A stretch of 45,390 bases of DNA, taken from a virus. The notes under the pieces were generated by a model. That model searched no databases, had not been told where the DNA came from, and saw nothing but the letters and a program-made list of their open reading frames with translations. The stretch is taken from the IMG/VR virus record IMGVR_UViG_3300032322_001014, positions 1 through 45,390 of that record. The stretch is one strand, 5' to 3'. A program made the translations under genes and the position numbers. The stretch's first letter is position 1. Each line of letters starts with the position of its first letter. Shown here one piece after another: positions 8,789 through 41,152 of this stretch.

Positions 8789-8955
8789 TATGCTTGCACC
8801 AGTTCTACTACCACAGAATCTCCGACTAATTCCTGAACCACTTGCTCAAGTGCGGTTTGAATTTCAGGGCTAACGATTCCAGCTTGTGCGGAATCACTAT
8901 CTTTGACAATTTTGCTTAGTTTAATTACGATTACATCTTCTACGATTTTCGCCAT
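8788..8955 (-). CDS. Small conserved-looking protein, 55 aa
   Basis: A short frame from ATG 8955 (MAKIVEDVIVIKLSKIVKDS) to a TAA that overlaps the next ATG as TAATG. Its start has a GGAG Shine-Dalgarno 8 nt upstream, within the inverted repeat 8958-8983. The sequence alternates Val/Ile with charged residues and is mildly acidic at its C-terminus (VGDSVVVELVQA). Function unknown. The tight overlap, the Shine-Dalgarno and the position directly behind a consensus late box make it a real first gene of the 8955-to-5558 operon rather than a chance frame. Confidence 0.7.
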   Translation of the reverse strand: MAKIVEDVIVIKLSKIVKDSDSAQAGIVSPEIQTALEQVVQELVGDSVVVELVQA

Positions 8956-8957
8956 GG

Positions 8958-8983
8958 TAAATACTCCATTAATAGAGTATTTA
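8958..8983 (-). promoter_or_regulatory. Inverted repeat covering the Shine-Dalgarno of the 55-aa gene
   Basis: Perfect 9-bp arms TAAATACTC (8958-8966) and GAGTATTTA (8975-8983) with an 8-nt loop. In RNA the 3' arm plus the last loop base spell GGAG, the Shine-Dalgarno of ATG 8955. The 5' arm overlaps the late box GATAAATA (8978-8985). RNA running in from the clpA operon can form the hairpin. RNA begun at the late promoter should start in the loop and cannot. Confidence 0.65.
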
Positions 8984-8985
8984 TC
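8978..8985 (-). promoter_or_regulatory. T4-type late promoter box GATAAATA
   Basis: GATAAATA followed by CTCTATT on the minus strand, close to the T4 late consensus TATAAATACTATT. It lies 22 nt before ATG 8955 and only 4 nt after the stop codon of the preceding early operon (stop at 8990-8992). It should drive the 55-aa gene, the beta-rich protein, the nucleotidyltransferase, the ligase-like and the nucleotidylyltransferase genes. Confidence 0.75.
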
Positions 8986-8989
8986 AAAA

Positions 8990-30276: not shown

Positions 30277-30774
30277 TTATTTATCATTATTTCCGTTTTT
30301 ACTTGCGATTAAGGATTTGAGTAATTCGTTACGATCTAGTAACGTAGATCCATTGCCCTGAGGTATATTCTCAATTTCCTTAGTTTTTTCGTTAAGTTTA
30401 GCGTCTAGTGCTGCTTTTTTTAGCTGAAGTTCAATCATTTTGATCTTCTTATTTACTTTAGCTGTTTTTGCAGTAATCGCATGACCTAACATAGTACCCG
30501 CAGTACTGAATATCTCTGCTGCAAATCTACTATCTACTTGCATACCCAGTTCCATTAAATCTGTATAGCTGTCTTTTGCTAAGTCAGCTAATTCATCCAT
30601 CTCACTATCAGTTGCTTCTAATCCACGGACTTGTGGGAGTGCGTTTTCTATCTTTTCTAGATTATTGTAGGCTTGTGTTGTTATTTCTTCAGGAACAGGA
30701 AAAGTCAGTTCTTCAACTTGAGATTGATCTTCGTCTAAGGGGAGGTCAAATAATTCGCTTAATTTTTTAGTCAT
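30277..30774 (-). CDS. gp16: Terminase small subunit (T4 gp16-like)
   Basis: 165 aa, matching T4 gp16 (164 aa) in length. EKIENALPQVRGLEATDSEM then YTDLMELGMQVDSRF and the long helical segment AAEIFSTAGTMLGHAITAKT (about 85-104), continued by KMIELQLKKAALDAKL, follow the coiled-coil oligomerisation pattern of phage small terminases. It would recognise phage DNA and stimulate the large terminase gp17, which was not found in this window. The upstream box is AATAAATA. Its stop codon lies inside the next late promoter (30278-30285). Confidence 0.8.
   Translation of the reverse strand: MTKKLSELFDLPLDEDQSQVEELTFPVPEEITTQAYNNLEKIENALPQVRGLEATDSEMDELADLAKDSYTDLMELGMQVDSRFAAEIFSTAGTMLGHAITAKTAKVNKKIKMIELQLKKAALDAKLNEKTKEIENIPQGNGSTLLDRNELLKSLIASKNGNNDK
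30278..30285 (-). promoter_or_regulatory. T4-type late promoter box GATAAATA
   Basis: GATAAATA followed by ATACTATAGG on the minus strand, overlapping the stop codon of gp16. It lies 19 nt before ATG 30258, with AGGAA as Shine-Dalgarno. It drives the 200-aa, membrane and 1473-aa genes. Confidence 0.7.
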
Positions 30775-30794: not shown

Positions 30795-30802
30795 TATTTA
30801 TT
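30795..30802 (-). promoter_or_regulatory. T4-type late promoter box AATAAATA
   Basis: AATAAATA followed by CTACTATTATAAG on the minus strand, 20 nt before the gp16 ATG. The downstream CTATT-like sequence resembles the T4 extended consensus. Confidence 0.6.
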
Positions 30803-38210: not shown

Positions 38211-38975
38211 TTAACCTTGTATCCAAGTTAATGGTTGACTGTAATCAACATATCTACGTAAATCTTCAATAAGTTGATCCATTGATGCTTTTGCTTCTGC
38301 TTTTAGTGCTGTACCATTTAATGTTGTGCCACCTGCTGGACCAGCTATACTAGCGAACTTTTCACGTGCTTCACCTAAAATACTCTTTAACTGTGCAAGT
38401 GTCCAATCTCCGATCCAAACACCTGCACCAGGGTCTTGTAATAGTTCTAGTTCAGGTCTTTGTATGTCTGCCCAAATTAGTACTCTTTCGCCGGATCCTT
38501 TTGGATCACGAACAATACGTAATTCTTTAGTTACTGGGTTGAAAGTAAAGATAACATATCCACCAAACATACGTGCTGCTAATTCAATGTAACCAGCATA
38601 GAAATCATAGGTAGCTAGCCCACCAGCATAGTTATAGTTTAATAGATAAGTGTTAAGAATTGCGCTACTGAATGGATCAAAACTGCTTGAAGATGGTCCA
38701 GTTTCTAACCCAACTGTTCTGCGGAATAGTTGTCTAACATTGATGAATTCTTCAGGCAATGTATAAACATTCTGATTTTTATGTATTTCAAATAACGTAT
38801 AGGACTCAATAGTTGCATTCTGCGCACGTTGACGATATACTCTTATAGCATATCTATATGCAGCCTCATAATGTTCAGGATCAAGTTCTACGTCAACTAT
38901 ACCGTCACCCAAACGATATCTTAGGTCACGAAAAAGATTGTCTTTTAATTCTTGTAAATTGTAGGGTGAAGCCAT
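38211..38975 (-). CDS. gp13: Neck protein (T4 gp13-like)
   Basis: 254 aa. LQELKDNLFRDLRYRLGDGI then VDVELDPEHYEAAYRYAIRV, with NVYTLPEEFINVRQLFRR, WIGDWTLAQLKSILGEAREK and a TTLNG segment before the final helix, follow the order of the gp13 neck family of T4-like marine phages as I know it. gp13 with gp14 forms the head-tail connector after packaging. The gp14-like gene is 2.2 kb away on the other strand. The ATG has GGAG 7 nt upstream, but this lies in an inverted repeat that surrounds a late promoter (38981-39009). Confidence 0.65.
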   Translation of the reverse strand: MASPYNLQELKDNLFRDLRYRLGDGIVDVELDPEHYEAAYRYAIRVYRQRAQNATIESYTLFEIHKNQNVYTLPEEFINVRQLFRRTVGLETGPSSSSFDPFSSAILNTYLLNYNYAGGLATYDFYAGYIELAARMFGGYVIFTFNPVTKELRIVRDPKGSGERVLIWADIQRPELELLQDPGAGVWIGDWTLAQLKSILGEAREKFASIAGPAGGTTLNGTALKAEAKASMDQLIEDLRRYVDYSQPLTWIQG

Positions 38976-38980
38976 AAAAA

Positions 38981-39009
38981 TTCTCCAGATGTTGTATTTA
39001 TCTGGAGAA
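38981..39009 (-). promoter_or_regulatory. Late promoter inside an inverted repeat that covers a Shine-Dalgarno
   Basis: Perfect 10-bp arms TTCTCCAGAT (38981-38990) and ATCTGGAGAA (39000-39009) with a 9-nt loop. On the minus strand the late box GATAAATA (38995-39002) starts in the 5' arm and fills most of the loop. The 3' arm contains GGAG, the Shine-Dalgarno of ATG 38975, and is followed by five T. Read-through RNA from the mazG operon would form the hairpin, hiding the ribosome site and perhaps terminating. RNA started at the late box would have no 5' arm and be open for translation. Confidence 0.75.
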
Positions 39010-39017
39010 GGGCCTAA

Positions 39018-39458
39018 TTACAAATCGCCGTCTTTACGATTCTCACTATGGTATGGATTAAAGCTACCACCTGGGTATCGTGATTCTAGTTTCTTTACAT
39101 TCTCTGCAATAACTTCATTTGGATCTAAATTCAATGCTCTACAAGCATTAATCCAGTACCACATTACATCACCCAATTCTCGTTTCATGTGAAACACGTT
39201 TTCATCAGTAAGTGCTTTACCTTGAAATATAATCTTCTTAGGAATCTCAATAAATTCACCTGATTCTGCTGCTAATCCCATACATGCTGTAATTAACAAT
39301 GGTAAATTTACATCAGGACCATGCTTCATTTCACCATCAAATACTTCATAGTTCGCATCTAGCCGATCTAATGTGTCCATAAATGTAGTAAGGTCATCAC
39401 TAGCTTGACTTGTGACTCCCTCTACAAAATCTTTGTACTTGTTTAAATCAATATTCAT
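39018..39458 (-). CDS. mazG: MazG-like nucleotide pyrophosphohydrolase
   Basis: 146 aa. GLAAESGEFIEIPKK gives Glu65-x2-Glu68 and KRELGDVMWYW gives Glu94-x2-Asp97, the four acidic metal ligands of the all-alpha NTP pyrophosphohydrolases. ENVKKLESRYPGG is a common phage MazG end. Marine phage MazG is often proposed to hydrolyse nucleoside triphosphates or signalling nucleotides; the substrate is not readable from sequence. It is the last gene of the early unit from 41096, overlapping the preceding gene by ATGA. Confidence 0.9.
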   Translation of the reverse strand: MNIDLNKYKDFVEGVTSQASDDLTTFMDTLDRLDANYEVFDGEMKHGPDVNLPLLITACMGLAAESGEFIEIPKKIIFQGKALTDENVFHMKRELGDVMWYWINACRALNLDPNEVIAENVKKLESRYPGGSFNPYHSENRKDGDL

Positions 39459-39637
39459 TCGTCATCTTCTCCAAAAAGGTATATTGCCATCTTACGCTCA
39501 GTAGTGTCCGGATCTTTCATCGCACATCCAAAGCAAATTTGTTCATCTTTAGGTCCATATGGTCTGCACTCTGCAATAATACCACACATCTGGCATGCTT
39601 GAGGTGCTTCTTCTGCTATGAATCCCCGTCCACTCAT
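39455..39637 (-). CDS. Small Cys-rich, probably zinc-binding protein
   Basis: 60 aa. CQMCGIIAECRPYGP and QICFGCAMKD supply two CxxC pairs, a typical small zinc ribbon or knuckle. The C-terminus is acidic. It starts with GGAG 5 nt upstream and overlaps mazG by ATGA. Function unknown; small zinc proteins beside mazG could act in transcription or protein binding. Confidence 0.7.
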   Translation of the reverse strand: MSGRGFIAEEAPQACQMCGIIAECRPYGPKDEQICFGCAMKDPDTTERKMAIYLFGEDDE

Positions 39638-39639
39638 AC

Positions 39640-39906
39640 TTACTCCTTTGGTATATTATACTCTCTACCGTATTGCGAATAGTGTCCTATAGCATCAGGT
39701 GATGAGTATTTTATATTACTTTCTACAGGCAGTCCAAAACGCTTACGAATGTTTCGCATGTCTGCTTGTGAGCCGCAGCAGGCTACACATTCATTAATAA
39801 TTAACTCGGCGAATTTTTTACACTCGGGCATATCCCAGTGTCCGATGCCAAAGCCATCTTCCATGTATCCAGCCTGTTCGGCAAGTTCTTTAATTCGTTC
39901 GTTCAT
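39640..39906 (-). CDS. Small conserved phage protein
   Basis: 88 aa. MNERIKELAEQAGYMED then KKFAELIINECVACCGSQAD are common in short phage proteins of unknown function. The Cys pair in VACC could bind metal but is isolated. It starts by TAATG overlap with the 396-aa gene and is followed after 2 nt by the zinc protein gene. Confidence 0.65.
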   Translation of the reverse strand: MNERIKELAEQAGYMEDGFGIGHWDMPECKKFAELIINECVACCGSQADMRNIRKRFGLPVESNIKYSSPDAIGHYSQYGREYNIPKE

Positions 39907-41096
39907 TAGAATGCCTTTAGAATAATCATATTCTCATTAAAACGACCATTAGGTGCAGTCGCCGTTGCTTTAATGCCCTCAAAATATTTACGGGCTGCAG
40001 GCTTACTACCCATAATTTCTTTGAGTTGTTCGCCTGGCTTACGCAATGTTTTGATTTCACTCTTGCCTGTATCAAAACCAATAATCGTATTACCCTTTAC
40101 AGTGAAAGTCTGACTGTATTGATCGGCAATATAGTGATGCAGTTTGCGCTTTGCAGTATCATAAACCCATGCTTCACTTGCACCATGTAGTTTAGTCGGA
40201 TGCACACTTATTAAATCAAGTTTTGCAGTTGGATCCTTAAACTCTTTAAGGTACTTGAGTTTTGATACAATCTTTTCAACTGGCACTGGCTTACGCTTGC
40301 GCGGAGTCTTGTTTGCTTTCTTAATGCTGATATAACTATTGAGGTCGCTAATAACTTGCTCAATAGTCTTAATCATATTTTTGACTTGCACTTTGCCGAA
40401 CTGGCTGTAACCCTCAACTAGTTGTGGGTCTTTGCCTTCTTGTACTTCATACCACTCGTTAAGTTCTTTCTTCCAAACATCTAGAATGATAGGGATGTGT
40501 TGTGGGAGAATGTTATGCTTTGCAAGAATGTCAATGGGCTTGCCTGGCAAACTGCCCTTCATCCCAGCCTGAATAAAATCGTCAAACAATCCAATGATTT
40601 CACCTGTTGCCTCACGTGCCTTTTCACGCATAATTTCTTGTACGTTGGGGCGATTCACAGGTTCTTTTTCTACTTCTACTTCCTGAGGTGTCAGATTACT
40701 TTTAAACACAGTTTCAGGCTTGTGTACGCAGGTAATCAGTCTGCTAATTTCATTTTGCAAACTAAGTTCCTCATGATCTGTCAATTGCAGTCCACGTAGT
40801 GTCATCCTAGCAAGCCAACCGTAAGTAGTAAGAATTTCACTTTCAGGTGCTTTAGCCATAACTTTTGCATCTGCTTTACGGTCATTCTGTTCCAAATATT
40901 GAATCATTAGTTCCTTAGCATCTTTGCGTACATAGAACCTAGTGTACCAACTGAATGCTCGGGCTAGTGCGCTATTGCGAAATTCTGGATCGGGCTGAAT
41001 TGCGAAAAAAGGCTCGTCTCCCGTATACTTTGTATCTGCATCTTTTGGGTTTAGTGCTTTAATGACATGATCGCTATTTTTAGACTTGCGTGACAT
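39906..41096 (-). CDS. Unknown early protein, first gene of the mazG operon
   Basis: 396 aa from ATG 41096, preceded by AGGAG; a longer frame to 41135 has no ribosome site. It is largely helical, basic and shows no motif I can name. FRNSALARAFSWYTRFYVRK and ILTTYGWLARMTLRGLQL suggest a folded N-terminal helical domain, and KKANKTPRKRKPVPVEKIVS a flexible basic linker near 280. A beta-rich C-terminal part follows (HPTKLHGASEAWVYDTAKRK). A nucleic-acid-binding role is possible from the basic linker only. It is transcribed from a strong early promoter at 41124-41152. Confidence 0.65.
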   Translation of the reverse strand: MSRKSKNSDHVIKALNPKDADTKYTGDEPFFAIQPDPEFRNSALARAFSWYTRFYVRKDAKELMIQYLEQNDRKADAKVMAKAPESEILTTYGWLARMTLRGLQLTDHEELSLQNEISRLITCVHKPETVFKSNLTPQEVEVEKEPVNRPNVQEIMREKAREATGEIIGLFDDFIQAGMKGSLPGKPIDILAKHNILPQHIPIILDVWKKELNEWYEVQEGKDPQLVEGYSQFGKVQVKNMIKTIEQVISDLNSYISIKKANKTPRKRKPVPVEKIVSKLKYLKEFKDPTAKLDLISVHPTKLHGASEAWVYDTAKRKLHHYIADQYSQTFTVKGNTIIGFDTGKSEIKTLRKPGEQLKEIMGSKPAARKYFEGIKATATAPNGRFNENMIILKAF

Positions 41097-41123: not shown

Positions 41124-41152
41124 ATTATAACACACCCCGTATTTAATTGCAA
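41124..41152 (-). promoter_or_regulatory. Strong sigma70-like early promoter of the mazG operon
   Basis: Minus strand TTGCAA (41147-41152), 17-nt spacer, TATAAT (41124-41129) with extended TGn directly before it. The ATG at 41096 is 27 nt downstream with AGGAG in between, so this message has a normal leader. Contrast with the leaderless arrangement at 12744 and 18086. Confidence 0.8.

Follow-up and report, generated by a model that had tools for sequence, protein, structure and literature searches.

The hairpin that precedes the gp13-like neck gene in the window (the whole of a 45,390-base IMG/VR virus record) is most probably a cis-acting translational gate that is off early and on late in infection, a reading to which we give, from sequence, a probability of roughly 0.85. 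RNA begun at an early, sigma-70-type promoter would meet no recognisable terminator in the mazG operon and continue into the neck gene. In this read-through RNA the 5′ arm of the hairpin would pair with the 3′ arm and hide the Shine-Dalgarno (SD) sequence, so that no neck protein would be made. Later, polymerase carrying a gp55-like late sigma would start at GATAAATA, inside the hairpin, and the late RNA, whose 5′ end would fall at or near the start of the 3′ arm, would lack the 5′ arm and have its SD free. The proposal draws on the anatomy of the element, its conservation and covariation, the modelled burial of the SD, the consensus of the early promoter, and the gp55 homologues of relatives.

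The window belongs to a T4-like myovirus, a relative of jumbo phages. Read on the minus strand, the element consists of the 5′ arm TTCTCCAGAT, the loop AAATACAAC, and the 3′ arm ATCTGGAGAA, followed by TTTTT and the ATG (Table 1). An earlier note on this DNA had described a perfect 10-bp inverted repeat whose 3′ arm carries the GGAG of the neck gene, with five T next, and the sequence agrees in each of these points, coordinates included. Its statement that the repeat encloses the late box holds in part: the repeat surrounds GATAAATA, but the box does not lie wholly in the loop, its GAT being paired as the final three positions of the 5′ arm. In all strong hairpins, the box overlaps the end of the 5′ arm and the loop. 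Taken alone, the repeat is unremarkable: others as long are not rare in 45 kb of AT-rich DNA, and the 25 longest inverted repeats listed for the window do not include it. For the plus strand of the region, the folding energy is −21.2 kcal/mol (z −2.5), and the window has no gathering-level Rfam match. The hairpin owes its significance to the comparison with relatives, that is, to the box at every readable neck locus, the covariation of the stem, and the scans with arm pairs.

Table 1. Features of the neck gene leader and the operon upstream of it (window coordinates)
Feature	Position	Strand	Remarks
Neck / head-tail adaptor gene, gp13-like, 254 aa (putatively gated)	38211..38975	-	phrog_211, E 8e-26; ATG at 38975
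TTTTT spacer, stem to ATG	38976..38980	-	conserved in nearest relatives only
SD of neck gene, GGAG	38983..38986	-	within 3′ arm; 7 nt before ATG
Candidate gate hairpin	38981..39009	-	5′ arm 39009-39000, loop 38999-38991, 3′ arm 38990-38981
Predicted T4-type late promoter box, GATAAATA	38995..39002	-	19 nt before ATG
mazG-like gene, directly upstream	39018..39458	-	phrog_229, E 2e-43; PF03819
Operon gene, 60 aa, no assigned function	39455..39637	-	
Operon gene, 88 aa, no assigned function	39640..39906	-	
First operon gene, phrog_11903, no assigned function	39906..41096	-	likely start ATG at 41096
Early-type sigma-70 promoter, TTGCAA-N17-TATAAT	41124..41152	-	extended -10; operon head

ATAAATA is not enriched overall in the window (17 found, 24 expected). 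Its placement is informative nonetheless, as 16 of the 17 lie on the minus strand, home of most of the window's genes, and 6 of the 17 sit 18–23 nt ahead of a start codon. The box of the neck gene has the marks of a T4-type late promoter, namely a TATAAATA-like sequence, a fixed distance before late genes, and a gp55-type sigma in relatives. Homologues of this sigma (phrog_234, the T4 gp55 family) occur in the related large contigs G001, G002, and G003, as well as in 121Q and Munch, and not in the 45-kb fragment that makes up the window. One genome description (PMC5259590) reports the ATAAATA motif ahead of structural genes in CBB and GAP32, and CBB is reported to encode a gp55-like sigma. Transcription from the box would be expected to start near 38990-38988, in the first bases of the 3′ arm. 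Elsewhere in the window, at 8955-8986, a 16-nt inverted repeat before a start codon has ATAAATA in its 5′ arm and GGAG in its 3′ arm. Another late box, at 30795-30801, lies within a 15-bp stem ahead of the gene at 30277-30774. This stem is unconserved in relatives and the gene upstream of it is one for head closure, so it was rejected as a probable local accident.

Three IMG/VR scans with different neck proteins and one pattern scan gave 281 neck loci. The ATAAATA box is present in all 276 IMG/VR neck loci with readable upstream DNA, in keeping with its predicted role as a T4-type late promoter, which the earlier note had proposed; the two loci where the box was missing have almost no upstream DNA. 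Inverted repeats over the box, which the note had suggested looking for in related phages, are the rule: among 147 distinct leaders, 123 have at least nine pairs around it, and the mean energy of the leaders is −12.5 kcal/mol, as against −5.1 with shuffled flanks. In an alignment of the 60 distinct leaders closest to the window, pairing is kept in 85.2% of the cells of an 11-pair stem. Double-sided changes occupy 99 cells (40 when shuffled), and the covariation score is 0.402, compared with 0.189 for shuffled alignments and at most 0.107 for slid partners. Arm pairs such as TTCTCC/GGAGAA, ACTCC/GGAGT, TTTCC/GGAAA, and TTACC/GGTAA interchange among relatives. The pattern argues for a helix maintained by selection through compensatory changes; the note had staked its proposal on arms that are conserved and covary in relatives, and these do. 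The hairpin is weak in about 15 of the 135 leaders that lack the noncoding RNA (ncRNA) described below, for no apparent cause, and it is kept in L057, L058, and L065 despite a divergent adjacent upstream gene.

The element is almost confined to the neck gene. An IMG/VR-wide scan with CTCCAGATAAATAN(2-7)TCTGGAG returned 60 stretches, 57 of them directly before neck genes, and the same query with its 3′ arm scrambled matched nothing in IMG/VR. With a second arm pair, 70 of the 80 readable matches were before neck genes, and 4 preceded a structural gene, baseplate-like in appearance. For the other late-box genes the count of enclosing pairs was loose, and energies were used instead. None of the 28 other late-box genes of a 260-kb relative has a dG below −10, and the outliers in a 230-kb relative are the neck gene (−18.9) and a single 590-aa gene (−17.1). 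The divergent MPRLSLYRP gene has orthologues with the box and no comparable stem. Because the other late-box genes mostly lack a strong fold, the hairpin is not a general property of late promoters. Box-enclosing hairpins were also seen at a 590-aa gene (G003:228050(+)), a 365-aa gene (L050:973(+)), and, in L398, L406, L407, and L429, a possibly baseplate-like gene. At L020:1912(+), a repetitive 322-aa gene inserted before the neck gene has such a hairpin, and the neck's own hairpin is weak.

Burial of the SD was modelled on a long RNA that includes the 5′ arm and on a short RNA that starts about 6 nt after the box. In the window, opening the SD would cost 12.6 kcal/mol in the long RNA and 2.1 in the short one. 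Over the 133 leaders without ncRNA, the modelled cost averages 10.8 and 1.4 kcal/mol, respectively, and the difference exceeds 3 kcal/mol in 122 of them. Folding with and without the 5′ arm, a check put forward in the earlier note, is thus in line with both of its suppositions: that the hairpin would hide the SD in read-through RNA, and that RNA begun at the late box, with its start placed from the box, would escape the 5′ arm. For T4 gene e, the same code gives 14.8 kcal/mol in the long and 0.3 in the short RNA. The traits that define an e-type gate in T4 appear here as well, with the SD predicted to lie inside a stable helix in the long RNA and the putative late promoter so positioned as to yield an RNA without the 5′ arm. 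A scan of T4 by the same procedure recovers what we take, from recognised translated starts, to be gene e, I-TevI, and segB. Some SD positions in that scan are defaults, so that only its top rows were used, and soc and gene 49 were not found among these top matches.

The gate presupposes early transcription from upstream. The mazG-like gene lies 42 nt from the neck ATG, and among 86 distinct operon heads of relatives, a TATANT -10 is found in 70, most with TTGACA, and ATAAATA within 45 nt in none. The sigma-70 consensus and the missing late box point to an early-type promoter on the mazG operon, as had been supposed. In L009, L032, L044, and L078, an unrelated gene of 193–239 aa replaces mazG before the neck gene and the hairpin is kept; a representative of this protein has no Pfam match.

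Among cultured jumbo phages, long hairpins with the SD in the 3′ arm are found in GAP32, BF, K64-1, Muenster, RaK2, Hallingskeid, Sharanji, 121Q, XaC1, and Munch. They surround CTAAATA or ATAAATA, with a modelled gating of 11.5–16.2 kcal/mol, and since several of these phages are close relatives, the ten amount to about six independent leaders. The candidate gate is present in 10 of the 11 cultured phages whose upstream gene is co-directional and in none of the 4 with a divergent one (Atu_ph07, SCTP-2, Vibrio 2.275, and Phosso; gating at most 3.7 kcal/mol). The exception is PA5oct, with a co-directional upstream gene, a gating of 3.5, and no gate. Sheath gene leaders of 121Q, XaC1, and Munch (L312, L313, and L314) also have a long hairpin, which encloses CAATAAATA and carries GGAGG in its 3′ arm.

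In 23 loci, the neck gene is immediately preceded by a region of about 440 nt that has neither ORF nor tRNA. A tRNA search upstream of the weak-hairpin loci found none; the region is a conserved ncRNA. It is a structured RNA, with compensating changes in 25 of 67 predicted pairs. The ncRNA loci have no gathering-level Rfam match, and this structured RNA of about 400 nt is previously undescribed. Loci outside the window include L051:2491-2930, L040:2526-2953, L060:1090-1532, L171, L177, and L198. Its core motif GACATAGACAATCCTCC occurs in 81 IMG/VR stretches; 62 of the 73 that were aligned precede neck genes and the others lie elsewhere.

Leaders with the ncRNA usually have weak hairpins (mean dG −2.9 in 12 distinct leaders, −13.4 in those without; p 4e-8). 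On the tree the ncRNA trait changes seven times, and six phylogenetically independent pairs agree or are neutral, none being opposite (sign test, p ~0.03). For example, the necks of L166 and L171 are identical in 250 of 254 residues and have the region of the 3′ arm and SD in common, and the 5′ arm of the ncRNA-bearing L171 is unpaired. The first 12 of 12 leaders had suggested an absolute loss of the hairpin, which an enlarged sample weakened to a strong link: a gain above 6 kcal/mol is found in 7 of 29 ncRNA leaders and in 108 of 133 without (Fisher p 7e-9, uncorrected for kinship). Insulation of the neck gene by the ncRNA may explain the weakening.

Other roles for the repeat have to be weighed against the gate. 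The earlier note had seen in the 29-nt element a terminator, a promoter, and a translational gate at once; the last two parts are favoured by the data above, and the first is not supported. Were the hairpin with its five T the intrinsic terminator of the mazG operon, ending early RNA before the neck gene, the TTTTT after the stem in the window and its nearest relatives would be accounted for. Yet at least four T within 6 nt of the stem follow only 12 of 120 strong hairpins, which makes the T5 a feature of the nearest relatives, and the stem is AT-rich, where an intrinsic terminator has a GC-rich stem and a conserved U-run. Further, the SD is always in the 3′ arm, which a terminator does not need. 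A terminator scan found none on the minus strand and did not list this hairpin, but its loop limit of 8 excludes the hairpin's 9-nt loop. Termination is accordingly a quite unlikely function.

The nearness of the repeat's centre to the box would also fit an element acting as DNA, a cruciform or a protein operator in the late promoter. This is very unlikely, as the arms vary freely among relatives while staying complementary, unlike a fixed operator, and most other late boxes of the same genomes have no repeat. Moreover, box and SD persist next to a decayed 5′ arm where the ncRNA intervenes (L166 versus L171), hence the promoter does not need the repeat. Least likely of those considered is autoregulation, in which the neck or another phage protein would bind the hairpin in the way that gp43 and gp32 of T4 bind their own mRNAs: it would suit an element so restricted to one gene, but beyond box and SD neither loop nor stem has a conserved sequence, and the hairpin is expected to be absent from late transcripts.

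If the gate reading is correct, it raises the question of the reason for keeping the neck adaptor protein off early, when its synthesis might be harmful. As a tentative and rather doubtful extension, the neck gene could serve jumbo T4-like phages as a dedicated checkpoint between early and late, with lineage-specific compensatory arms, in which an intervening ncRNA insulates the gene and renders the gate dispensable. The clade supplies arms with compensating changes and cases of natural loss, and these ideas can be tested in cultured E. coli and Klebsiella phages.

The late promoters of CBB and GAP32 have the same motif before structural genes and a gp55-like sigma; the published passages on their promoters, terminators, and sigma factors mention no neck-gene hairpin (PMC5259590), whereas GAP32 has one here. 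The nearest likeness is with T4 gene e, whose leader hairpin has late promoters in its 5′ strand (review PMC3014915). Both leaders would have the SD buried in read-through RNA, a late promoter in the 5′ part of the hairpin, and a late RNA without the 5′ arm. Among the differences, gene e serves lysis and has two late promoters, where the neck gene has one box; the arms are unrelated in sequence, and the phylogenetic spread of the neck element is far wider. The SD or AUG is also sequestered on early RNA in T4 I-TevI, soc, gene 49, and segB and in Aeh1 mobE (PMC3014915). These are mostly homing endonucleases and a nuclease, unlike the neck gene; soc, being a virion gene, comes closest as a precedent. 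Thus far the T4 gate concerns a handful of genes, and here it would concern one gene clade-wide, with more than 100 natural variants. As the mechanism is known from T4, the neck gate would represent not a new mechanism but a new, exceptionally well conserved member of the e/I-TevI kind.
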